Assembly (NCBI GenBank): GCA_017434025.1
Contig: JAFRGC010000079.1
Span: 1-37,991, forward strand
Reading direction: 5' to 3'
DNA: 37,991 nucleotides
Source of the DNA: Mogibacterium sp.
Lineage (GTDB): Bacteria > Bacillota > Clostridia > Peptostreptococcales > Anaerovoracaceae
Made by a program: the position numbers and the translations under genes. This document shows, piece after piece, positions 7,574 to 24,423 of the stretch; position 1 is the stretch's first letter; every line of letters starts with the position of its first letter. The notes under the pieces were generated by a model. It saw nothing but the letters and a program-made list of their open reading frames with translations. It was not told where the DNA came from and ran no database searches.

Positions 7574-8908
7574 CTAGTTCAGAACGACCTTCTTGAATTT
7601 CTTCTTGCCCTTCTGCAGGATCAGTTCTCCGTCCTTGAAGCAGTCAAGTGTCACTGCGAATCTCTTATCTGTTACCTGCTCGCCGTTGACTCTTGCTCCG
7701 CCGCCCTGGATGGTCCTGTATGCCTCGGATGTCGATGGCTCGAGACCTGCTTCCTTGAGCAGTGCTGCCAGACCCATTCCATCGCCTTCGAACTTCGCCT
7801 TGTCCATCTGGACTGTAGGCATATCCTGAGATACTCCGCCGCCTGCGAAGATCTCACGGCTTGTCTCCAGAGCCTTCCTTGCCTTCTCTTCTCCGTGTAC
7901 CAGCTTGGTCACTTCGTAAGCAAGGACTTCCTTCGCCTCATTGATCGCAGATCCCTCAAGAGCAGACAGCCTGTTGACCTCGCTCATTGGCAGGAACGTG
8001 AGCATTCTCAGACACTTGTTGACATCGGCATCAGCAACATTCCTCCAGTACTGGAAGAAATCGTATACCGGGCACTTTCTCTCGTCGAGCCAAAGCGCGC
8101 CTTTCGCTGTCTTGCCCATCTTCTTGCCTTCGCTGGTCGTCAGAAGACCTACTGTAAGTCCGAATACTTCCTTGCCGCAAGTCTTTCTGGTCAGATCTAC
8201 ACCGGCGATGATGTTGGACCACTGGTCATTGCCGCCGAACTGTGCCTTGAGGTCGAAGTCTCTTGCCATGACCATGAAGTCATAAGCCTGAAGCAGCATG
8301 TACGAGAACTCGAAGAACGAAAGTCCTTCATCTCTGTCCATTCTGGTCTTGAAGCAGTCAGCTCTCAGCATGGTGTTGACGTTGAAGTGTCTTCCGATCT
8401 CTCTTGCGAACTCCGTGAATTTGCACGGTCTGATCCACTCAGCGTTGTTGACGCTTACTGCGAGACCCGGAAGCGGTTCTCTGTTCTGGTGACCCGGATG
8501 ATATACACCCTCGTTGCCTTCGTACTTCCACTCATCGTCGAAGTCGATGAATTTCTCAAACAGTCTCTTGAACTGTCTGCAGTTCTCATCGATAGTGTCT
8601 ATCGTCATTACCTGACGCATATCGCTGCGGCCTGATGGATCGCCGATCTCACCTGTTCCTCCGCCGAGCAGGAATACCGGAGTATGACCATACTTCTGCA
8701 TATACATCATGGTGATGACTGGAATGAAATGTCCTACATGCAGGCAGTCTGCCGTTGGGTCAAACCCGATATAGAACTTGATCTTCTCCTTGCCGAGGAG
8801 TTCTCTGAGTGCCTCAGGGTTCGTCGACTGCTCGATCAGTCCTCTCTCCACCAGGACATCATATACATTGGTGTGTTCACTAACATTGTCAGGAATAAAA
8901 GTTTTCAT
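7574..8908 (-). CDS. tyrS: Tyrosyl-tRNA synthetase
   Basis: This class Ic synthetase charges tRNA-Tyr. At 444 residues it is slightly longer than the ~420 aa common form. The HIGH motif is HVGH (57-60), the tyrosine-site motif QFGGNDQW spans 223-230, the KMSKS equivalent is KKMGKT (262-267), and an S4 RNA-binding domain ends the protein (about 375-444). The start follows AAGGAGAGG. The gene is preceded by a promoter, a tyrosine-rich leader ORF and a terminator with a competing antiterminator, so expression is likely attenuated in response to Tyr-tRNA supply. Confidence 0.96.
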   Translation of the reverse strand: MKTFIPDNVSEHTNVYDVLVERGLIEQSTNPEALRELLGKEKIKFYIGFDPTADCLHVGHFIPVITMMYMQKYGHTPVFLLGGGTGEIGDPSGRSDMRQVMTIDTIDENCRQFKRLFEKFIDFDDEWKYEGNEGVYHPGHQNREPLPGLAVSVNNAEWIRPCKFTEFAREIGRHFNVNTMLRADCFKTRMDRDEGLSFFEFSYMLLQAYDFMVMARDFDLKAQFGGNDQWSNIIAGVDLTRKTCGKEVFGLTVGLLTTSEGKKMGKTAKGALWLDERKCPVYDFFQYWRNVADADVNKCLRMLTFLPMSEVNRLSALEGSAINEAKEVLAYEVTKLVHGEEKARKALETSREIFAGGGVSQDMPTVQMDKAKFEGDGMGLAALLKEAGLEPSTSEAYRTIQGGGARVNGEQVTDKRFAVTLDCFKDGELILQKGKKKFKKVVLN

Positions 8909-8970: not shown

Positions 8971-9000
8971 AAAAAAGCCCCGCAGTATTGCTGCGGGGCT
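8971..9000 (-). terminator. Attenuator terminator in the tyrS leader
   Basis: Minus strand: AGCCCCGCAG (9000-8991), loop CAATA, CTGCGGGGCT (8985-8976), then a run of T (8976-8971). It lies downstream of the tyrS promoter and 62 bp before the tyrS start, so it must be bypassed for tyrS to be made. Its 5' arm and loop also take part in the antiterminator helix. Confidence 0.9.
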
Positions 9001-9092
9001 CGAATCGACTTCGTTACAGATCCGGGATCACATCGCAACAACACTGCTATTCAGCATCTGAATAGTAATCATAATAGTAGATTGCCGCAACG
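8983..9092 (-). promoter_or_regulatory. Alternative RNA helices of a tyrS attenuator
   Basis: Three helices compete on the minus-strand transcript. Segment 1 (9092-9081, CGTTGCGGCAAT, leader codons 4-8) can pair with 9042-9031 (GTTGTTGCGATG), 12 contiguous pairs including G-U. Segment 2 (9046-9034, CAGTGTTGTTGCG) can instead pair with segment 3 (8995-8983, CGCAGCAATACTG), 13 contiguous pairs with two G-U, which breaks the terminator. A small hairpin, CTATTCAG-ATG-CTGAATAG, covers the last leader codons and lies inside the 1:2 helix. A ribosome stalled on the Tyr codons would cover segment 1 and free segment 2 to form the antiterminator. Confidence 0.8.
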
Positions 9093-9103
9093 ATTCCTTT
9101 CAT
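9047..9103 (-). CDS. Tyrosine-rich leader peptide of tyrS
   Basis: This 18-codon ORF encodes MKGIVAAIYYYDYYSDAE, ending in TAG. Five of the 18 residues are tyrosine, in codons 9, 10, 11, 13 and 14. It starts about 34 nt after the expected transcription start, with a weak AGG-type ribosome site (ACAGG, 10 nt before ATG). It lies just upstream of the antiterminator and terminator helices before tyrS. By analogy with the trp, his and phe leaders (established knowledge), slow translation of Tyr codons when Tyr-tRNA is scarce would favour read-through into tyrS. The peptide itself probably has no function after synthesis. Confidence 0.8.
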   Translation of the reverse strand: MKGIVAAIYYYDYYSDAE

Positions 9104-9143
9104 TAATATATGACCTGTCTTTCCGTAAATCTCAGATGTTCAA

Positions 9144-9172
9144 ACTATATCACTTAACTACTGTGCTGTCAA
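9144..9172 (-). promoter_or_regulatory. Near-consensus promoter of tyrS
   Basis: Minus strand: TTGACA (9172-9167), exactly 17 bp, TATAGT (9149-9144). The predicted start of transcription is near 9137, placing the leader ORF early in a ~230-nt leader. Confidence 0.88.
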
Positions 9173-9262: not shown

Positions 9263-9700
9263 CTAGAAATCAAGATCTTCGATCTCGTTGATCCTGCGCA
9301 GGTGCTTGCCGCCTTCGAATTCAGTAGTCATCCATGTATCGATGATATCGAATGCAAGCTCCTGACTGATCATTCTGGCACCCATGCACACTACATTGGC
9401 GTTGTTGTGCCTGCGGCACATTTCAGCCATCTCTACGGAAGTGCAAAGTGCTGCTCTGACTCCAGGTACCTTGTTACATGAAATACTTATTCCGATACCG
9501 GATCCGCAGACTGCGATGCCTCTCTCTGCCTCGCCGCTTGCAACAGCTTTGCCTACTGCGTGACCGTATTTAGGATAGTCACAGGATTCAGGAGAATAAG
9601 TACCTACATCTATTATCGTATGACCTTCGCTTTCCATCTTGGCTTTAATAGCTTCTTTCAGATCATAGGCTGCATGGTCACTTCCGAGTGCGATTACCAT
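9263..9700 (-). CDS. rpiB: Ribose-5-phosphate isomerase B
   Basis: This RpiB/LacAB-family isomerase interconverts ribose 5-phosphate and ribulose 5-phosphate. Its 145 residues are typical. Landmarks are GSDHAAYDLK (6-15), the catalytic cysteine in GIAVCGSGIGISISCNK (C65), RRHNNANV with H98, and the C-terminal phosphate-binding arginines HLRRI. It begins 23 bp after the first FadR-type regulator gene and is the last gene of the sugar block before a terminator. RpiB relatives also isomerise other aldose phosphates such as allose or erythrose forms, so the in vivo substrate could follow whatever the TRAP system imports. Confidence 0.93.
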   Translation of the reverse strand: MVIALGSDHAAYDLKEAIKAKMESEGHTIIDVGTYSPESCDYPKYGHAVGKAVASGEAERGIAVCGSGIGISISCNKVPGVRAALCTSVEMAEMCRRHNNANVVCMGARMISQELAFDIIDTWMTTEFEGGKHLRRINEIEDLDF

Positions 9701-9723: not shown

Positions 9724-10443
9724 TTAACGATCTGAGATCTCCTCTTCAAAGTATGTGCTTCTGACCTTATAACTCAGGCTGTGGCTGTCTTTCTGCCTGA
9801 TCGATTCAATCAGCTCTTTGTGCGCATTGATCAGTTCTTCTGATCTGTTCTCAGTGAGCATAGTTGTCACAGTCTTCAGGCGGAGCGCATATGTAAGGGA
9901 TCTCACTACTCTGTTGATCTTGTCTGCCATAGGGTTCTTGCCCATCTCGGCGATAAGGTCATGGAAACTGTCATCAGCATCAAAGAACGCTTTGACCGGA
10001 TCGTCCGGATCATTCACGGCTGCCCGCATATCATCCAGCCTGTTTTCCAGTTGATCAAGTTCTTCTTCGGTATGATGATCGATTGCCAGCCTCATCATCC
10101 CGGCCTCTGTCATCTCTCTGAGCTCCATCAGATTCTCGAAGGAATCCTGATTGAGGATTATGCCATAGACCATCGGATCGATCATGCTCTCGGTATATCC
10201 GTTACAGACGAAAGTACCTTCCGAGCGCTTGCTTTCCAGCACACCAAGATAGGTAAGGATCTTGATCGCTTCCCTGACGCTGCTGCGCGCCACCCCAAGG
10301 GATTCGGCGAGTTCCGGTTCAGGTGGGATCTTGTCCCCCGGCTTGAGTTCCTTGGTACGCATTGCATCAGTCAGCCGGTTGATGACACTCTGTACCACGG
10401 ATTCTTTTTTCAAGCTTTTCAGATAGGTTGGTGTCTGAGCCAT
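9724..10443 (-). CDS. FadR-type GntR regulator, copy 1
   Basis: This 239-residue regulator has an N-terminal winged helix (about 14-80; KPGDKIPPEPELAESLGVARSSVREAI is the GntR signature) and a helical FadR/FCD effector domain (about 95-235), where acidic and histidine residues (MELREMTEAGMMRLAID, DDSFHDLIAEM) may bind metal and an organic acid. The start ATG follows GGAG by 8 nt. An identical-looking architecture is encoded at 14000-14740; most of the DNA-recognition region and the NPMADKINRVVRSLTY stretch are shared. The two regulators flank dctPQM, which makes the transporter the likely target. The candidate core GTCGGAC lies upstream (10497-10503). Confidence 0.92.
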   Translation of the reverse strand: MAQTPTYLKSLKKESVVQSVINRLTDAMRTKELKPGDKIPPEPELAESLGVARSSVREAIKILTYLGVLESKRSEGTFVCNGYTESMIDPMVYGIILNQDSFENLMELREMTEAGMMRLAIDHHTEEELDQLENRLDDMRAAVNDPDDPVKAFFDADDSFHDLIAEMGKNPMADKINRVVRSLTYALRLKTVTTMLTENRSEELINAHKELIESIRQKDSHSLSYKVRSTYFEEEISDR

Positions 10444-10676
10444 ACCATGATCTCCTTTAGTTTAGATAGGAGTGTTGATTGTATAAAATATCGCAAGTCG
10501 GACGTATGACATACTACATGAATTGAGAATAACAGTTTGGTTTTGAATTGTCAATCTGTTTTACATTCTATTTCAAACTGTTAAACAACCAGCTTATATG
10601 TGAAGTCATTGCGCTCTCTGCAGATATTTCACCAGCCGAAAAAGCGTTATGTGGGGGATGATTTAGCTAAACCATG

Positions 10677-10715
10677 AAAACTGCTGCTGCACTATGCAAG
10701 CACAGCGGCAGTTTT
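10677..10715 (-). terminator. Terminator of dctM
   Basis: A 13-bp stem (AAAACTGCTGCTG with CAGCGGCAGTTTT, one G-T pair) around a 13-nt loop, 11 bp after the dctM stop; on the minus strand it ends in TTTT. Confidence 0.7.
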
Positions 10716-10726
10716 CTGATAAATCT

Positions 10727-12007
10727 TTAGTTGAATACTCCTGGGAGCCAGGTTACGAATCCTGGTACATATGTGATCAGCAGCAGTACCACTACGAGCG
10801 GGATGAGGAATGGCAGTACAGCCTTGTACATCTCCTCGATTCTGATATTTGCTGTCTTAGCACAGATGAACAAGCTTGTTCCTACAGGCGGTGTGCAGAG
10901 TCCGATCATCAGGTTCAGTACGAGTACTACGCCCAGATGTACCGGATCGATTCCGAACGAACCCATGAGAGGGATCAGGAACGGTACTGTGATCGTCATT
11001 ACAGCAAGAGCTTCCATGAACATTCCGATGATCAGGAACGCAACGTTCAGGATCAGCAGCATGATGTACTTGTTTGTGGTCAGGCTTGTCAGTGCGTGTG
11101 ACAGAGCGTCAGTCATGCCCATCATAGTAACGAGCCATGAGAACGCAGCAGCACCGCAGATGATGTTGAGGATGCCTGCGCCGTCAGCTACTGTCTGCTT
11201 AAGTGCCTGATAGATCTCCTGGACTGTCATGCCCTTGTAGAGAATGACGGACAGGAAGAATGCGTATACTACAGCAACGCATGCAGCTTCGGTTGGTGAG
11301 AAGATACCTGTCCAGATACCGCCGATGATGATGACCGGGGTCATGAGTGACAGGAAAGCTTCCTTAGTAGCTCTGAGGAGCTCTTTGCCGTCGAATTTAT
11401 GTACTGGATAATGTCTCTTCTTGGACATTATGAATACCAGAATGCTGGTAGCGAGAGCCAGAAGCAGGCCAGGTACGATACCACCGATGAACAGTGTTCC
11501 TACCGCAACTTCTGTCATCATGCCGTATACTACCATCGGGATCGAAGGCGGGATGATAGGTCCGATCGTTGCGCTCGCGCAGGTTACTGCGGCTGAGAAG
11601 TCAGCATCGAATCCCTCGTCGATCATAGCGTCTACCTCGATCTGTCCGAGTCCGCCGGCATCAGCTACAGCTGATCCGCTCATTCCCGAGAATACGATGG
11701 AAGCAAGTACGTTAGCATGTCCAAGACCACCCGGGATCCAGCCGATAAGAGCTGAGCAAGCCCGGAATATTCGTCGTGTGATACCGCCCGTATTCATCAG
11801 CTTCGCCGCCAGGATGAAGAACGGGATAGCCAGCAATGTGTACGATGACGCATTACCTATCATACGGTGTACGATAGCTGTTGGCTCGAAACTACCGGTA
11901 ATCATTGTAGTTGCAAGTGCGGATATAGCGAGTGAGAAACCAATCGGCACACCCATGACCATGAGTATCAGGAAGATTCCCATGACCAAAATTACTAATT
12001 TAATCAT
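10727..12007 (-). CDS. dctM: TRAP transporter large permease DctM
   Basis: This is the ion-coupled transport subunit of a tripartite TRAP importer. Its 426 residues form about 11-12 membrane segments throughout. Characteristic stretches are GVPIGFSLAISALA near the N-terminus, IVFSGMSGSAVADAGGLGQIEVDAM (conserved SG.S.A..A..G mid-protein) and the C-terminal LGVVLVLNLMIGLCTPPVGTSLFI. It follows dctQ by 17 bp and ends at a terminator. It acts with DctP, which catches the substrate outside the cell, and DctQ. TRAP systems usually carry carboxylates or sugar acids. The substrate here is not readable from sequence. Confidence 0.95.
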   Translation of the reverse strand: MIKLVILVMGIFLILMVMGVPIGFSLAISALATTMITGSFEPTAIVHRMIGNASSYTLLAIPFFILAAKLMNTGGITRRIFRACSALIGWIPGGLGHANVLASIVFSGMSGSAVADAGGLGQIEVDAMIDEGFDADFSAAVTCASATIGPIIPPSIPMVVYGMMTEVAVGTLFIGGIVPGLLLALATSILVFIMSKKRHYPVHKFDGKELLRATKEAFLSLMTPVIIIGGIWTGIFSPTEAACVAVVYAFFLSVILYKGMTVQEIYQALKQTVADGAGILNIICGAAAFSWLVTMMGMTDALSHALTSLTTNKYIMLLILNVAFLIIGMFMEALAVMTITVPFLIPLMGSFGIDPVHLGVVLVLNLMIGLCTPPVGTSLFICAKTANIRIEEMYKAVLPFLIPLVVVLLLITYVPGFVTWLPGVFN

Positions 12008-12024
12008 TGTATTACCTCCTGATA

Positions 12025-12534
12025 TCAGATCTCTGCAGCTGCGGTCTCGACCTCTGCATCGTCTGCAGCCTTGATTCTCTTGTATCCTACGTTAACGATC
12101 TGGAACAGCGACATCAGAGCGCCAATCGGGAACGGCATATAGAACCAGCCGCGAGCGACAGGAATCGTCTGATACAGTGTCTGCATTGCGTTCTGTACGA
12201 CACTGATAGCAAGATAACCTGCTATTACAAGGAAGACGAAGCAGAATCCATCCATGATGGTCAGCCAGATCGCACGCATTTTAGGCTTCATAGCATTAGA
12301 TACGAAAGTCAGTCTCATGTGCTCATCATTGTGGAATGTCATGGACATACCGATGAACACGATCCAGGACAGGCATACAAGCGTGATCTCATACTGCCAT
12401 GCAACAGGGTTGTTGAAGCAGTAACGGCTGATTACGGACCAGGTAATCAAGAGGATGAGGAATATCATCAATGCTACTGTAATGGCAGAAGCGATGTTAT
12501 TGATCACCTCGCATAATTTATCAAATTTCTTCAT
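12025..12534 (-). CDS. dctQ: TRAP transporter small permease DctQ
   Basis: This 169-residue protein has four membrane segments (about 15-38, 48-70, 90-112 and 132-152), typical of DctQ, which joins DctM to form the membrane complex. The region AWQYEITLVCLSWIVFIGMS (48-67) carries the family pattern of a glutamate in helix 2 followed by W.....G.. . It lies between dctP (116 bp upstream, with an intercistronic hairpin) and dctM. Confidence 0.92.
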   Translation of the reverse strand: MKKFDKLCEVINNIASAITVALMIFLILLITWSVISRYCFNNPVAWQYEITLVCLSWIVFIGMSMTFHNDEHMRLTFVSNAMKPKMRAIWLTIMDGFCFVFLVIAGYLAISVVQNAMQTLYQTIPVARGWFYMPFPIGALMSLFQIVNVGYKRIKAADDAEVETAAAEI

Positions 12535-12567
12535 AAGTCAGATTCCTCTCTGTTGTTTTGCAAAAGC

Positions 12568-12594
12568 TGCAAGGGCGCTTCACACGCCCTTGCA
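12568..12594 (-). terminator. Intercistronic hairpin between dctP and dctQ
   Basis: TGCAAGGGCG pairs perfectly with CGCCCTTGCA around a 7-nt loop. The following minus-strand tail, GCTTTTGC, is only weakly T-rich, so partial termination or 3'-end protection of dctP mRNA is likelier than a full stop. This would give more binding protein than permease. Confidence 0.65.
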
Positions 12595-12650
12595 ACTGTT
12601 CAGGACGAAATCCTTAAAATTTAACTGTTATTGATTCAGTTGTTCAGTCT

Positions 12651-13688
12651 TTACTGCATCGCAGCCTGAATACGTGTTACGAGATCCTCAGCCCAGTCAT
12701 TCTGTGCATAGAAGTCATCGTATACAGAAGCTGTTGCTGCCTGAAGCTCAGCGATGTCAGGATATGTAACTTCCATGCCTGCATCCTGGAGTTCCTTGAG
12801 CATTGTTTCCTGGCTGTCTACGATAGCCTTGCGGTGCTCATCACCGTATGTCTTAGCAGCTTCCTTGAGGAGGTTCTGAACGTCTTCTGGATACTTGTTC
12901 CATGATGTCAGCGAGAATACCATGTTCTTGCACTCATACTTGTGGTTTGTCATAGCAAGATACTTCTGTACATCCTGGAAGTTGTTAGCATAGATGTTGG
13001 ATACCGGGTTCTCCTGGCCATCGAATGTACCCTGCTGGAGTGCGAGGTAGAGCTCGGAGAATGCGAGCGGTGATGGCGAAGCGCCGAGTGCGTTGAAGAT
13101 AGCCATTGTCATAGCATCCTCAGGTGTTCTGATCTTCAGACCCTTGAAGTCTGCAGCACTGTTGATAGCTCTCTTGGAGTTTGTTGTCTGACGGAGACCG
13201 TTCTCCCAGTAAGCAAGCTGGATCATGTTGTGGTTTGCAAGGTCAGCTACGAGCTCGTCACCGATCTCGCTGTCGAGTACCTTATATACTGACTCATAAT
13301 CCGGGAACAGGAACGGGAGTCCGAGGGCGTTGATCTTAGGAGCAAGTGTAGCTTCCTGGCCCTGAGGCATCATCATAGCATCCAGGGAACCCATTTCGAG
13401 CATCTCTGTCATCTCAGCATTGGATCCGAGCTGCTCTGCAGCGTAGATGTCAACCTGGACAGCGCCGCCGGACTGCTCCTCTACATAAGCAGCAAAGTTC
13501 TCAAGGGAAACGTTGATCAGGTTAGTTGTTGTGTCACTGTGACCGATCTTGATAGTGAATGTCTGGCCGCCAGCGAATGCATCAGAGTCGCCGCCCTCAG
13601 CCGGAGCTGCAGCTCCACCGCCGCCACAAGCTGCGAGTGCCATTGCGAGTACTGCCATCATAAGCAGAGCTAAAAGTTTCTTCTTCAT
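12651..13688 (-). CDS. dctP: TRAP transporter substrate-binding lipoprotein DctP
   Basis: This is the extracellular receptor of the TRAP importer. Its 345 residues begin with a lipoprotein signal (KKKLLALLMMAVLAMALAAC, lipobox cysteine C21) and a short glycine/acidic linker. The DctP fold follows: TIKIGHSDTTTNLINVSLENF, a central GLKIRTPEDAMTMAIFNALGASPSPL (the arginine near 187 is the conserved residue that grips the carboxylate of the ligand in the family), and QQGTFDGQENPVSNIY. This indicates an acidic ligand, probably a sugar acid or dicarboxylate. The start follows AGGAGG. The gene has a long 5' region (311 bp) with a perfect palindrome at 13905-13919. Confidence 0.94.
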   Translation of the reverse strand: MKKKLLALLMMAVLAMALAACGGGGAAAPAEGGDSDAFAGGQTFTIKIGHSDTTTNLINVSLENFAAYVEEQSGGAVQVDIYAAEQLGSNAEMTEMLEMGSLDAMMMPQGQEATLAPKINALGLPFLFPDYESVYKVLDSEIGDELVADLANHNMIQLAYWENGLRQTTNSKRAINSAADFKGLKIRTPEDAMTMAIFNALGASPSPLAFSELYLALQQGTFDGQENPVSNIYANNFQDVQKYLAMTNHKYECKNMVFSLTSWNKYPEDVQNLLKEAAKTYGDEHRKAIVDSQETMLKELQDAGMEVTYPDIAELQAATASVYDDFYAQNDWAEDLVTRIQAAMQ

Positions 13689-13999
13689 TTTTTCCTCCTG
13701 GTAATTTAGATATCAGTGTTTCAAATACTACGTAAGATAAAACCATTAGATAGTGCCCGCATCCAGGGAAGCAATCATGCTCTCTCAGTTCATACTGCAG
13801 AACTATATACGCAACCCTTTCATAATATCGAGCGTATTATTGAGCAATATATTCTTCCCTCTGCTGACCACCACCTTTCTGACGACTCTACAATACATGT
13901 TGTCTTATGTCTGACATAATTATGTAAGGCAATAATACAATATGCTTTTACAAAAATCTACCCATTCGGGCAATAGTTATTTGTTTCACAGTTAGGGAT
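13689..13999. other. 311-bp intergenic region before dctP
   Basis: This region holds no gene. It contains the 15-bp palindrome at 13905-13919 and, closer to the upstream FadR-type gene, a weak 6-bp hairpin (TTGCCC-GAAT-GGGTAG on the minus strand, near 13960-13975) followed by ATTTTTG that may end that gene's transcript. From the palindrome to the dctP start there are about 215 bp with no recognised riboswitch or leader ORF. A clear -35/-10 pair could not be fixed. Confidence 0.5.
13905..13919. promoter_or_regulatory. Candidate FadR-type operator upstream of dctP
   Basis: TTATGTCTGACATAA is a perfect 15-bp palindrome about one central base. GT-N3-AC is the core of many FadR-subfamily GntR operators. 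Two FadR-type regulators flank the operon. The same GTCTGAC core occurs before the dehydrogenase gene (19055-19061). Confidence 0.6.
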
Positions 14000-14740
14000 C
14001 TATCTGTCGCTGGCATTATCCAGCTTGTGATAGACCTCCTCCTCATAATAACTGAATCTCACCTTGTTGCTCAGATCATGCGTATCCTTGTCCCTTATGG
14101 CTTCCATAAGCTGGCGATGTGTTTCGATCAGTTCTTCAGCACGTCCTTCCGTGACCATGATCATCACTGTCTTGAAGCGCACATCGTATGTCAGCGATCT
14201 CACGACTCTGTTGATCTTATCTGCCATTGGGTTCTTGCCCATTTCAGCGATCTTGTCATGAAACCTCTCGTCCGCAGCGAAAAATATTCCGACAGGATCA
14301 TCTTCTGATGCAACGGCGCGCTCCATCTCTTCGAGCAGATCTTCCAGTTCCTGCAGCTCCTCCGCATCGTGGTGATCGATGGCGAGGCGCATCATTCCCG
14401 CTTCTGTCATCTCTCTCAGCTCCATGAGCTTCTCGAATGAATCCTGATTAAGCAGTATCCCGTATACCATCGGATCGATCATGCTTTCACTGAATCCACT
14501 GCATACGAATGTTCCTTCAGATCTCTTGCTCTCCAGAACTCCGAGGTATGACAGGATCTTGATCGCTTCCCTGAGACTGCTTCTTGCGACCCCAAGAGCT
14601 TCAGCAAGTTCTATCTCTGGCGGCACCTGGTCCCCCGGCTTCAGCTCACCACTCGTGATAGCATCGGTCAGCCTGTTGATAACGCTCTGTACGACCGATT
14701 CTTTTTTGAGATTCTGCATGTAAGTTGGCACCTGGTTCAA
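14000..14740 (-). CDS. FadR-type GntR regulator, copy 2
   Basis: This 246-residue regulator has the same architecture as the one at 9724-10443: winged helix with GDQVPPEIELAEALGVARSS, then FadR-type helical effector domain with MELREMTEAGMMRLAIDHH and NPMADKINRVVRSLTYD. The two match at most positions over nearly the full length. The predicted start is TTG at 14740, chosen because it matches the N-terminus of the other copy and follows AAAGGAG by about 12 nt. It lies between pfp and dctP on the same strand. The effector is probably the imported acid or a phosphorylated intermediate (inference). Confidence 0.9.
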   Translation of the reverse strand: MNQVPTYMQNLKKESVVQSVINRLTDAITSGELKPGDQVPPEIELAEALGVARSSLREAIKILSYLGVLESKRSEGTFVCSGFSESMIDPMVYGILLNQDSFEKLMELREMTEAGMMRLAIDHHDAEELQELEDLLEEMERAVASEDDPVGIFFAADERFHDKIAEMGKNPMADKINRVVRSLTYDVRFKTVMIMVTEGRAEELIETHRQLMEAIRDKDTHDLSNKVRFSYYEEEVYHKLDNASDR

Positions 14741-19247: not shown

Positions 19248-19877
19248 CTACTTCGTTCCGAATATCCTGTCGCCGGCATCGCCAAGACCAGGTACGATGT
19301 AAGCGTTCTCGTTCAGATGAGCATCCTTCGCAGCGATATAGATATCGACGTCCGGATGTGCTTTGGTCAGAGCTTCGATCCCTTCCGGAGCCGCGATCAG
19401 GAACATAAGGCTGATATCCTTAGCTCCTCTCTTCTTGACGAAGTCTACAGCTGCGATCGCGCTGCCGCCTGTTGCGAGCATCGGGTCTACGATGATGACC
19501 TTTCTCTTGTCTATATCCTCAGGGAGTTTGCAGTAGTATTCTACCGGCTCGTGGGTCTCCGGATCTCTGTAGAGGCCTACGTGTCCGACTTTGGCGTTAG
19601 GGATGATCTCCAGCATGCCGTCAACAAATCCAAGTCCGGCTCTCAGGATCGGAACGATCGCCACGTCCAGGCCCTTGAGCATTTTGACTGTTGTCGGGCA
19701 TATTGGTGTCTCAATATCGACTTCCATTGTCGGCAGATCTCTGGTGACTTCAAATGCCATCAGCATCGCTACTTCTCTTGCCAGGTCTCTGAACTCTTTG
19801 CTTGTAGTGTTCTTGTCCCTCATCATCGATACCTTGTGCTGGATCAGCGGGTGATCGAATACCATTATCTTGCCCAT
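19248..19877 (-). CDS. upp: Uracil phosphoribosyltransferase
   Basis: This pyrimidine-salvage enzyme makes UMP from uracil and PRPP. Its 209 residues are the standard length. The PRPP loop is [21 protein letters not shown] (about 131-151), preceded by [14 protein letters not shown] (77-90), and the uracil-binding C-terminus ends [16 protein letters not shown]. The start follows CGGAGGT. It is 67 bp downstream of sua5 and has its own terminator. In many Firmicutes the same genes (prfA, sua5, rpiB, upp) are clustered; here rpiB is about 10 kb away. Confidence 0.96.
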
Positions 19878-22180: not shown

Positions 22181-24358
22181 TCAGTATTCGTCGTATTTTT
22201 CCATGATCTTCCGCAGGATCGGGTCATTCACATCAAAACCGATCTCTCCCACCGAAGCGATCGGCAAAACCTTCGGCGATGTGCCGCTGATAAACGCAGC
22301 CTGGCAGCTCCCGATCTCCGCAGCAGACAACGCCGTCTCGCAAAGTTTGACACCCATATCGCGGATGATCTCGATGATCTTGCTGCGCGTGACACCGAGC
22401 AGGACTTTATCAGCCGGTGCGGTGAGCACTTCCCCATCCCTGATGAAGAACACATTGGAGCGGCTGCCCTCTGTGATCTGCCCGTTCCTGTCGACCAGCA
22501 GGACCTCATACAGATCATGCTCTCTGATCGCTGCATTGGTCGCTTCGCGGAGCGCTCTGTCCATCATCTTGATATTAGGATTGCGGCGCTCGCCACGGAA
22601 CAGTTCCGTCCTGACCCCGCTCTCATACATCTCGGCGGTCGGATAGTGGGTAGGTGTGAGGTAGAGTCTGGAATAACCTCCGATATCCGCCTCTATCTTG
22701 ATATTGTGATTCATGATGCCGCTCTCGTTCACGAGCTCATCGATGCAGCCTGCAAGATCCCCGCAGCTGAACTGCAGCACCCTGCCCATACTTGCCAGAG
22801 ACTTCTCCAGCCTTCTGTAATGGTCCTCGAGGAACACCGGCTTGCCGTCTGTGATACGGACAACCTCATATACCGAAGGCATATCGAGGCTGCCCAGTGT
22901 GACAGCAGATTTGAAGGCGCTGATCATATCCCGGACGATCGTCCTTATCATGTCCAGCGGTATCTGATTATAGTAGAAGAGCAGATACACACGTCCGTCG
23001 CGGTCCAGCTGCTCTATGTCTCTGACCTTGGCTCCGGCATCTGCGGCAGCTTCGACCAGCCTCTCAGCAAGCTCGTGATGGATCTCCTCAGTCCTCTTGC
23101 TGCCGGACTGACCTTCTGTAATGACTCTCACGTGAGTATCCAGCCGCAGTGTCATGTTGATACCGGACTGTGCGTTCTCTGCGGTGACAAATCCTCCATC
23201 GCTGCCAAACTCTCTGACTGCTGCCAGCGCCACCTGCAGTTTGCGCGAATAGAGCTTGCGTACTCTCTTCAGATTAGTATTGTAGAAGCCCCTCTTCATG
23301 AACTGAGCCAGCGTCAGCTGCTCGGTCTTGGAACAAGTCTGGTCGTAATTCATCCTGATGCGGTCGTACAGATCCACCATGCTGTGCGGCAGCACCATGT
23401 AACTGATCCTTACCGCAGGGAACAGCGTAGAAGTGAACGACCCGATGTACACGACTCTGCGGCCCTGATCGAGCCCCTGCAGTGCCGGGATCGGTCTGCT
23501 GTTATATCTGAGTTCGCTGTTGTAATCATCTTCTATTATTATACTGTCATTCTTCTCCGCCCACTCGAGGAGCTGACGCCTGCGCCCTATTGGCATCACT
23601 GCACCAGTCGGGAACTGATTCTGCGGGCAAACATAGACAGAGGTGCGGATATTCACCGGAAGCTTCTCGATCGTGATACCATCCTCGCGTACCGGTATGC
23701 AGTTGATGCTGAATCCCCAGTCACGGAAAATATTCCTGACCGGCATATAGCCCGGATCTTCCACCGATACATGTCCGATATCCATCATCTTCAGGATCCT
23801 GGCAAGATGGCTGACGAGCTGCTGCGTACCGGCACTGATAATTACCTGCCGCTGAGTGCACACGACACCTCTGGCATGGTACAGGTACTTCGCGATCTCT
23901 TCTCTCAGCGCAGGTTCGCCCTGCCTGTCGCCCTCTGTCAGCAGCTGCTCAGGCATGTCGTTGAGAACGCTGGCCATACACTTCTTCCATTTGACAAAAT
24001 CGAATGACTCCGGATCGCAGTTCACCGGTCCACGCGCGCTTTCTGTGTGACCCGCTCTGTCTGCCTGCTGTTCTTCCGGCTTCGTGATATCCGACTCCTT
24101 CCCGGCAGACGCGCCGGCACCCGAAGCAGCGTAATAGCCGGACTGCGGTCTGCTGATCAGATAGCCTTCCGCCATCAGCTGATCATAGGCGAGCTTGACG
24201 GTCGTCACGCTGATCCCAAGTGAATCAGCCATGCTTCTGAGAGACGGCAGCCGCTCTCCGGTGCTGATCCTTCCCTCACTTATCTCTTCTCTGAGATGTT
24301 CATATAGCTGTACATACAGGCTTGTTGCTGAATTGTTATCAAATTCGAACGAAATCAT
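22181..24358 (-). CDS. MocR-type regulator fused to a class IV aminotransferase
   Basis: The protein has three parts (725 aa from the ATG at 24358, where MocR homology begins; another in-frame ATG lies at 24406, and neither has a clear ribosome site). Residues 5-78 are a GntR winged helix (LPSLRSMADSLGISVTTVKLAYDQL). Residues about 115-485 are an aminotransferase class I fold as in MocR/PdxR regulators (EDDYNSELRY near 276). Residues about 494-725 resemble D-amino-acid, branched-chain or aminodeoxychorismate-lyase class IV enzymes, with NIKMMDRAL (K597) and ITEGSRSNVFF. In the MocR domain the PLP lysine of the usual GTFSKTLFP is replaced: GSFTSTLFP has Ser310. Only the class IV domain keeps a lysine. 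It is divergent from an ECF transporter gene, its likely target. Confidence 0.88.
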   Translation of the reverse strand: MISFEFDNNSATSLYVQLYEHLREEISEGRISTGERLPSLRSMADSLGISVTTVKLAYDQLMAEGYLISRPQSGYYAASGAGASAGKESDITKPEEQQADRAGHTESARGPVNCDPESFDFVKWKKCMASVLNDMPEQLLTEGDRQGEPALREEIAKYLYHARGVVCTQRQVIISAGTQQLVSHLARILKMMDIGHVSVEDPGYMPVRNIFRDWGFSINCIPVREDGITIEKLPVNIRTSVYVCPQNQFPTGAVMPIGRRRQLLEWAEKNDSIIIEDDYNSELRYNSRPIPALQGLDQGRRVVYIGSFTSTLFPAVRISYMVLPHSMVDLYDRIRMNYDQTCSKTEQLTLAQFMKRGFYNTNLKRVRKLYSRKLQVALAAVREFGSDGGFVTAENAQSGINMTLRLDTHVRVITEGQSGSKRTEEIHHELAERLVEAAADAGAKVRDIEQLDRDGRVYLLFYYNQIPLDMIRTIVRDMISAFKSAVTLGSLDMPSVYEVVRITDGKPVFLEDHYRRLEKSLASMGRVLQFSCGDLAGCIDELVNESGIMNHNIKIEADIGGYSRLYLTPTHYPTAEMYESGVRTELFRGERRNPNIKMMDRALREATNAAIREHDLYEVLLVDRNGQITEGSRSNVFFIRDGEVLTAPADKVLLGVTRSKIIEIIRDMGVKLCETALSAAEIGSCQAAFISGTSPKVLPIASVGEIGFDVNDPILRKIMEKYDEY

Positions 24359-24423
24359 GATACTATTTCGAAATCCCCAATAATTGTGCCCAACAAAAAA
24401 TGACAAAGTGTGTATTTATTTAA

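Follow-up and report, generated by a model that had tools for sequence, protein, structure and literature searches.

A predicted tyrosine-codon attenuator before tyrS in Mogibacterium, with sister leaders at other aromatic genes

How does a member of the Clostridia control tyrS if not by a T-box? Clostridial synthetase genes are regarded as T-box territory, and tyrS of Bacillus subtilis has a T-box. The locus considered here lies in a stretch of 37,991 nucleotides, called the window below, from a 2.2-Mb draft genome of Mogibacterium sp. that is 84% complete. By contig search it is closest to genomes from the rumen and gut that carry the label Clostridiales RUG or Mogibacterium sp. An earlier note, made from the letters alone, had claimed a leader peptide and a tyrosine-codon attenuator before tyrS. 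We argue that the tyrS leader is predicted to be a tyrosine-specific, ribosome-mediated transcription attenuator, and we would put this reading at about 90%.

All elements of the leader region are on the minus strand between rpiB (9263..9700), the upstream gene, and tyrS (7574..8908), which encodes a tyrosine--tRNA ligase (TIGR00234, 398 bits against a cut-off of 114). The near-perfect promoter of the earlier note, TTGACA-17-TATAGT, is present at 9172-9144 with 11 of 12 consensus matches and a TG before the -10. The 18-codon ORF, MKGIVAAIYYYDYYSDAE plus a stop, is present too (9103-9047). Its five Tyr codons are codons 9, 10, 11, 13 and 14, which read TAC TAT TAT at 9071..9079 and TAC TAT at 9062..9067. 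Segment 1 (9081..9092) lies within codons 4-8, just 5' of the Tyr codons. Segment 2 (9031..9046) is the alternative partner of segment 1 or segment 3 according to the folds, the permutations and the pair check. Segment 3 (8983..8995) is placed by folds and pair check either in the antiterminator with segment 2 or inside the terminator. Both claimed helices of segment 2 are exact. The antiterminator 2:3 (9046-9034 with 8995-8983) has 13 of 13 pairs, 2 of them GU, and the competing helix 1:2 (9092-9081 with 9042-9031) has 12 of 12, 5 of them GU. The claimed intrinsic terminator (8971..9000) has a stem of 10 bp, all paired (9000-8991 with 8985-8976), and Ts up to 8971. It is absent from a simple terminator scan and was seen by the pair check and the fold; its helix also covaries. 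All 13 pairs of 2:3 overlap the terminator arm, so the antiterminator and the 3:4 terminator are mutually exclusive. Two features had been missed by the earlier note. One is a local 8-bp hairpin, P (9047..9065, pairing 9065-9058 with 9054-9047), which covers the end of the leader ORF and is possibly a pause hairpin. The other is that the leader stop codon (9049-9047) abuts segment 2.

Consider the T-box first, a riboswitch in which uncharged tRNA-Tyr would bind the leader and stabilise the antiterminator. T-boxes do precede tyrS elsewhere in the family, in genera other than that of the window. T-box matches with E of 0.001 or less occur in 141 of its 148 genomes, 90 over the cut-off, and at least 5 among the matches listed are at tyrS, where Rfam confirms 5 of 5. 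The T-box is directly upstream of tyrS in G018; in G015, G064, G090 and G145 it is at tyrS with the start of the gene placed by arithmetic from a partial match. The genome of the window itself has two T-box matches elsewhere, both below the Rfam cut-off; judged by eye, they precede thrS and a trpB-like gene. However, the tyrS leader is occupied by a coding ORF and attenuator helices. RF00230, like every other Rfam family, has no match in the window at gathering score, and at the L001 locus no T-box appears at E up to 1. The claim that this is not a T-box therefore stands, and a T-box here has next to no probability.

The attenuator reading can be followed through the relatives. We compared 110 tyrS loci with up to 400 nt upstream. 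A family search supplied 30 of them and GTDB contigs the other 80, and some loci of the two sets share a genome. Less than 400 nt is available before tyrS in L039, L042, L064 and L092, and the upstream stretch of L108 is offset, its match starting at residue 29. A Tyr-run leader is found at 21 of the 110 loci, the window included and Mogibacterium among them. The YYY frame before tyrS in L054 was left out of the count, as it resembles the tail of an upstream gene. The leader ORF and Tyr codons that the earlier note proposed to look for in relatives are kept in some, and many close relatives lack the leader. Near-duplicates (L049, L057, L085, L106 (Mogibacterium kristiansenii)) were dropped before alignment, and 17 leaders were kept. 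Their ATG is 8-13 codons from the Tyr run, and the stop codon abuts or overlaps segment 2 in 14 of them. TAT and TAC are exchanged among leaders, and helix 1:2 is weak or shifted in L003, L004 and L051. On a TyrS tree built from the window and 42 selected loci (43 rows, the long branch of L104 being unreliable) 16 rows have the leader, and at least 7 changes are required. All but L031 of the 9 rows in the window's clade have it. Before tyrS in L038, L040 and L050 the promoter and terminator are retained and the leader ORF is gone, so these are leaderless remnants.

Such remnants, together with the many relatives that have no leader, would suit a reading without any regulation: a constitutive terminator or the end of the rpiB transcript, beside an ORF that arose by chance. 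The promoter alone is not significant, since the whole stretch has 2 promoter-like sites against 1.9 in shuffles, but relatives retain a similar one. The rest does not look like chance. When the 292 nt before tyrS are shuffled, an ORF of this kind (ATG start, 10-40 codons, YYY, at least 5 Tyr) turns up in only 2 of 5000 cases. The rpiB gene has its own terminator-like hairpin (9239-9208, from the terminator scan) between it and the tyrS promoter. The leader, the helices and the codon identity recur across genera and genes. We therefore consider an unregulated locus very highly improbable. The 157-nt leader also exceeds all of its dinucleotide shuffles in stability (200 of 200, z -4.70).

The gene order around tyrS differs between the two kinds of locus. 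In raw locus counts that ignore kinship, upp lies within 400 nt before tyrS at 64 of 89 leaderless loci and within 1500 nt at 1 of 21 leader loci. In the window it is about 10 kb off (19248-19877) and rpiB is the direct neighbour of the tyrS region. It seems that upp was lost from an rpiB-upp-tyrS order and that tyrS would then have gained its own promoter and switch. Elsewhere in the window, with all names given by eye, two similar GntR-like regulators flank an apparent TRAP transporter set (9724-14740), and a 741-aa frame (22181-24406) is an apparent MocR-type regulator fused to a class IV aminotransferase.

The three helices of the earlier note do not covary equally: changes support 1:2 and 3:4, and 2:3 weakly. 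In the MAFFT alignment of the 17 tyrS leaders, 89.2% of the cells in helices 1:2, P and 3:4 are paired, and both sides change in 11 of the 25 pairs, some of them in P. Their covariation score is matched by 0 of 500 shuffles. Helix 2:3 with P has 91.3% paired cells, and 3 of the 4 pairs changed on both sides belong to P. An alignment of 41 leaders from several genes has both-side changes in 17 of the 21 pairs of 1:2 and 3:4 (0 of 500 shuffles); for 2:3 the score is reached by 16 of 500 shuffles and the pair count by 263 of 500. The 2:3 core is nearly invariant in this larger alignment, with the pairing kept in relatives, which is expected if segment 2 must fit two partners. Cognate segments also outpair permuted ones for 1:2, 2:3 and 3:4 in 76 leaders (0 of 1000 permutations each). 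Within the classes tyrS, tpl (phenol-lyase-like, see below) and aroF, permutations do as well for 2:3 in 3, 54 and 0 of 1000, and in the tpl class cognate 2:3 is barely above permuted. These counts are not clean probabilities because a control with reversed segments also has a small cognate advantage, about 0.6 versus 2.2 (1:2) and 1.2 (2:3) kcal/mol, with 6 and 3 of 1000. Part of the cognate-pairing effect is relatedness, judging from this control.

The locus has what one finds in classical ribosome-mediated attenuators: a short leader ORF that has a start and a stop of its own and carries the regulated codon in a run, a repeated codon for the pathway amino acid of the downstream gene, and a 1:2 helix that competes with the antiterminator. 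From this anatomy we infer ribosome stalling, the switch itself and its kinetics. RNA polymerase would start just downstream of the -10 (9144) with a ribosome trailing on the 18-codon leader. If Tyr-tRNA is scarce the ribosome would wait at codons 9-14, covering segment 1 and leaving segment 2 free. Segments 2 and 3 would then pair, no terminator would form and tyrS would be transcribed. If Tyr-tRNA is ample the ribosome would come to the stop codon, and since that codon abuts segment 2 it would cover segment 2. Alternatively, the ribosome would depart and 1:2 would form. With segment 2 occupied, 3:4 would fold and transcription would end near 8971.

Folding with a masked ribosome bears on this switch. 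The RNA was folded to the end of segment 3, i.e. cut before the second arm of the terminator, and the mask was the ribosome footprint (13 nt from the first base of the A-site codon) plus all upstream RNA. In the window 2:3 has 0.0 expected pairs with no ribosome, 9.5 with one stalled on the first Tyr codon and 1.8 with one at the stop. With the ribosome stalled on the first Tyr codon, the antiterminator is favoured in every one of the 17 leaders (6.7-11.8 expected 2:3 pairs). A ribosome at the stop leaves 1.8 or fewer in 14 of 17; in L003, L004 and L104 it does not block 2:3. With no ribosome 2:3 is still predicted in 8 of 17, the window's leader not among them, and in L041 it is lost with a ribosome on the third Tyr codon. 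If a wider pairing region is counted, 5 or more expected pairs persist with the ribosome at the stop in 10 of the 19 tyrS-type leaders. Equilibrium folds that include the whole terminator give it a probability above 0.7 in 13 of 17 leaders, the window's among them, even if the ribosome is stalled, and therefore the switch would have to be kinetic. E. coli trpL, masked in the same way and with the folds judged by reading, forms its antiterminator with a stalled ribosome but not with one at the stop. As modelled, the anatomy would fit the trp model, and some leaders would leak if untranslated.

Is this attenuator confined to tyrS? The scope given by the earlier note holds at tyrS and is too narrow, as the leader has sisters in a wider aromatic family. 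A covariance model, R1, was made from the 17 tyrS leaders, with one 1:2 pair off by one column and one pair lost. It matches in 30 of 47 genomes of the genus, 17 of which have a match above 100 bits. Behind these 17 matches TyrS is found in the window and 15 others; L130 lacks it. The tyrS-type leader there (L130:1501-1654) is followed by an IS-like frame on the opposite strand (by eye), with no tyrS in the stretch. The weaker genus matches that were examined are mostly other leaders. Among the R1 matches of genus and family together, L154, L158, L175 and L186 were judged non-leaders, and L159 and L160 are remnants. Across 349 genomes of the family R1 matches in 73, in 18 of 92 genera. Among 36 family matches examined, 29 stand before an apparent aroF (DAHP synthase) and one each before pheA, tyrA and tyrS; 2 have no gene in view and 2 are not leaders. 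A later covariance model, R2, was searched against the genomes of the order and the class and matches in 97 of 393 and 53 of 391, with families other than the window's among them. The 20 order matches examined comprise 16 AroF, 2 phenol-lyase (one in pieces), 1 tyrA and 1 pheA, and all 17 class loci examined outside the window's family (L257-L263, L265-L274) hold AroF. Some of the weaker R2 class matches will be chance.

What changes from one gene to the next is the codon block. The aroF leaders have Tyr and Phe runs as a rule (..FAAEYYYYYFFF..). They are L172-L174, L176, L178-L185, L187-L197, L199-L200, L202, L204-L206, L239-L241, L243-L249, L251-L263 and L265-L274, and together they span several Clostridia families. 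AroF was identified by family models in one case (L172) and by tblastn in 27. Leaders of pheA have Phe runs (FFFSFTF in L177; also L242), and leaders of tyrA (prephenate dehydrogenase) have Tyr (L155, L198, L238). One genome has a Tyr leader, L134, before a TrpX-like ABC binding protein that is below the cut-off of that model. A trpB-motif match that overlaps this leader is weak (32.9 bits against a cut-off of 59, E 0.3) and was dismissed as a chance match. Phe makes up 0 of 58 run codons in the tyrS class (19 leaders, the gene being seen behind 18 and L130 included without it) and 0 of 128 in the tpl class (22 leaders, including L143 and L149 with no gene visible behind). It makes up 69 of 194 in the aroF class, where it is in the run of 26 of 28 leaders, the gene being seen behind 27 and L201 included with none visible. 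L142 (TTG start, TPL behind) is missing from the class table, and L181 and L182 (like L179 and L184) were left out of later tables. The codon blocks follow the downstream gene across the sister leaders, and this supports the tyrosine-codon attenuator of the earlier note. Sequence and relatives together show an ORF, Tyr codons, alternative helices, a terminator and, across the sister leaders, codons that match the gene. The leaders are probably one homologous aromatic family of common origin with a codon block that differs by gene.

A few single leaders may be mentioned here. In the genome of L003 a pure Phe run, FFFFFGFFFF, with one Tyr earlier, stands before aroF (L254, G032:C42:69829-69988). 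At L155 (about 1660-1790) an in-frame stop interrupts tyrA a few codons past the apparent start of the gene. L138 and L156 (G150) are two further Tyr leaders, and behind L156 there is, by eye, a second terminator-like hairpin.

One can imagine that the peptide rather than the codons does the work. TnaC and the Erm leaders are arrest peptides, in which the nascent chain itself stalls the ribosome; here it would do so in place of the missing Tyr-tRNA. VAAIYYY is well conserved inside the genus, as this would have it, and slow Tyr runs alone could stall. But VAAI is encoded by segment 1, and its conservation is explained by RNA pairing. Outside the genus the residues preceding the Tyr run vary (VAAI, NNNN, HKQA) and the Tyr run alone is common to the leaders, a pattern that fits the reading of codons better than an arrest peptide. 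No stall-site peptide is conserved across the relatives, and the sister leaders exchange Tyr for Phe according to the gene. An arrest peptide is highly improbable.

We return to the codon-reading attenuator and to its least expected gene. In the genome of the window a leader, MKQTRTYTAAYYYYYYRSEVAVLL, stands before a beta-eliminating lyase that is tyrosine phenol-lyase-like (L144:1562-1728, G000:C8:81061-81227). A PucR-like regulator frame precedes the lyase and an MFS-like transporter frame follows it (names by eye). The lyase scores 436.5 bits against TIGR02618, the tyrosine phenol-lyase equivalog, below the cut-off of 720.7, and its best NCBIfam model over cut-off is the subfamily NF009709, named tryptophanase (565.9 bits). 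Its best solved relatives are tyrosine phenol-lyases, 395 bits versus 331 for the best tryptophanase. Thr124 and Arg381 (C. freundii numbering), which we take to have roles in C. freundii tyrosine phenol-lyase, are both conserved in the alignment by a manual count. A site search of the same genome for AGC-N4-three-Tyr, a pattern that the tyrS leader itself does not fit, finds the tpl leader and one other site. The gene is present in 25 of the 47 genus genomes, full length in 24 and split in two frames in one, and 22 of the 25 have a leader on the same contig when match lists are compared. In L237 (G082:C14) a Tyr leader with two Phe is kept before broken pieces of such a gene.

A pure-Tyr starvation switch is unexpected before a degradative enzyme. 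For this reason the phenol-lyase of these gut bacteria may be a tyrosine synthase, working from phenol, pyruvate and ammonia, rather than a degrader. As to whether it replaces tyrA, there is no clear mutual exclusion of the two among the 47 genus genomes, which are incomplete. A PDH_N match above 60 bits is found in 13 of them, 5 of which also have the phenol-lyase when the lists are compared, and 20 of the 25 phenol-lyase bearers have no such match. This lack of PDH_N is what one would expect of tyrosine auxotrophs with phenol as their source of tyrosine, though the association is weak.

A broader history can be drawn up. An attenuator family borne by aroF would have spread through the Clostridia and been copied to pheA, tyrS, tyrA, the transporter and the phenol-lyase, possibly a tyrosine synthase, with essentially only the codon block exchanged and with the T-boxes of sister genera replaced. 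Taken as a whole we find this scenario conceivable and rather unlikely. Within one bacterial family tyrS has a T-box, a leader-peptide attenuator, or the rpiB-upp-tyrS order without a leader, so that one can trace how RNA switches have been exchanged. The codon-swap series (Tyr, Tyr plus Phe, Phe) on one scaffold makes the codon-reading model directly testable. From the codon blocks of sister leaders one can also read what genes such as the phenol-lyase do in the physiology of their bearers.

How does the tyrS leader compare with known systems? It differs from the T-box (RF00230), which reads the tRNA directly and has no leader peptide. The E. coli trp, his and pheA leaders and pheST (PheM) are ribosome-mediated attenuators. 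They share a run of the regulated codon in a leader peptide, the 1:2, 2:3 and 3:4 helices and an intrinsic terminator, and in pheST a synthetase gene is the target as it is here. They differ in that this case is tyrosine, tyrS and the Clostridia, and Rfam scans gave no sequence relation. Closer to hand in the literature, the passages on uORFC-8-2 describe a leader ORF with tandem cognate codons and a 3' terminator before cysS in the Rhodobacterales; this differs in the amino acid (cysteine), the clade (alphaproteobacteria) and its two prominent stems (PMC8632094). The section on uORFC-13-1 describes a leader ORF with Phe codon(s) and a terminator before aroF, in Acholeplasma and environmental sequences only (24 sequences), and mentions no Tyr run (PMC8632094). 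Compared by description only, uORFC-13-1 is a plausible analogue of our aroF sister leaders (PMC8632094). Among Gram-positives, classical attenuators stand before the Streptomyces synthetase genes trpS2 and leuS, for Trp and Leu rather than Tyr; for tyrosine genes of other species the RNA control named in the relevant parts of that paper is the T-box, and for Actinobacteria tyrosine operons they report no conserved upstream structure (PMC1262725). Ribosome-mediated His leader attenuators, in place of a T-box or repressor, are described for the Peptostreptococcaceae, Lutispora, the Erysipelotrichales and the Bacillus cereus group in the sections of a study that treat them, and these differ in serving histidine operons (PMC9413887). 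In the open-access papers searched we found no Tyr leader attenuator before tyrS and no such family in the Clostridia, in keeping with the view of the earlier note that the device is little described or new there. The kind of attenuator is already known; what is new is the amino acid, the gene, the clade and the unusual codon-swapped regulon.
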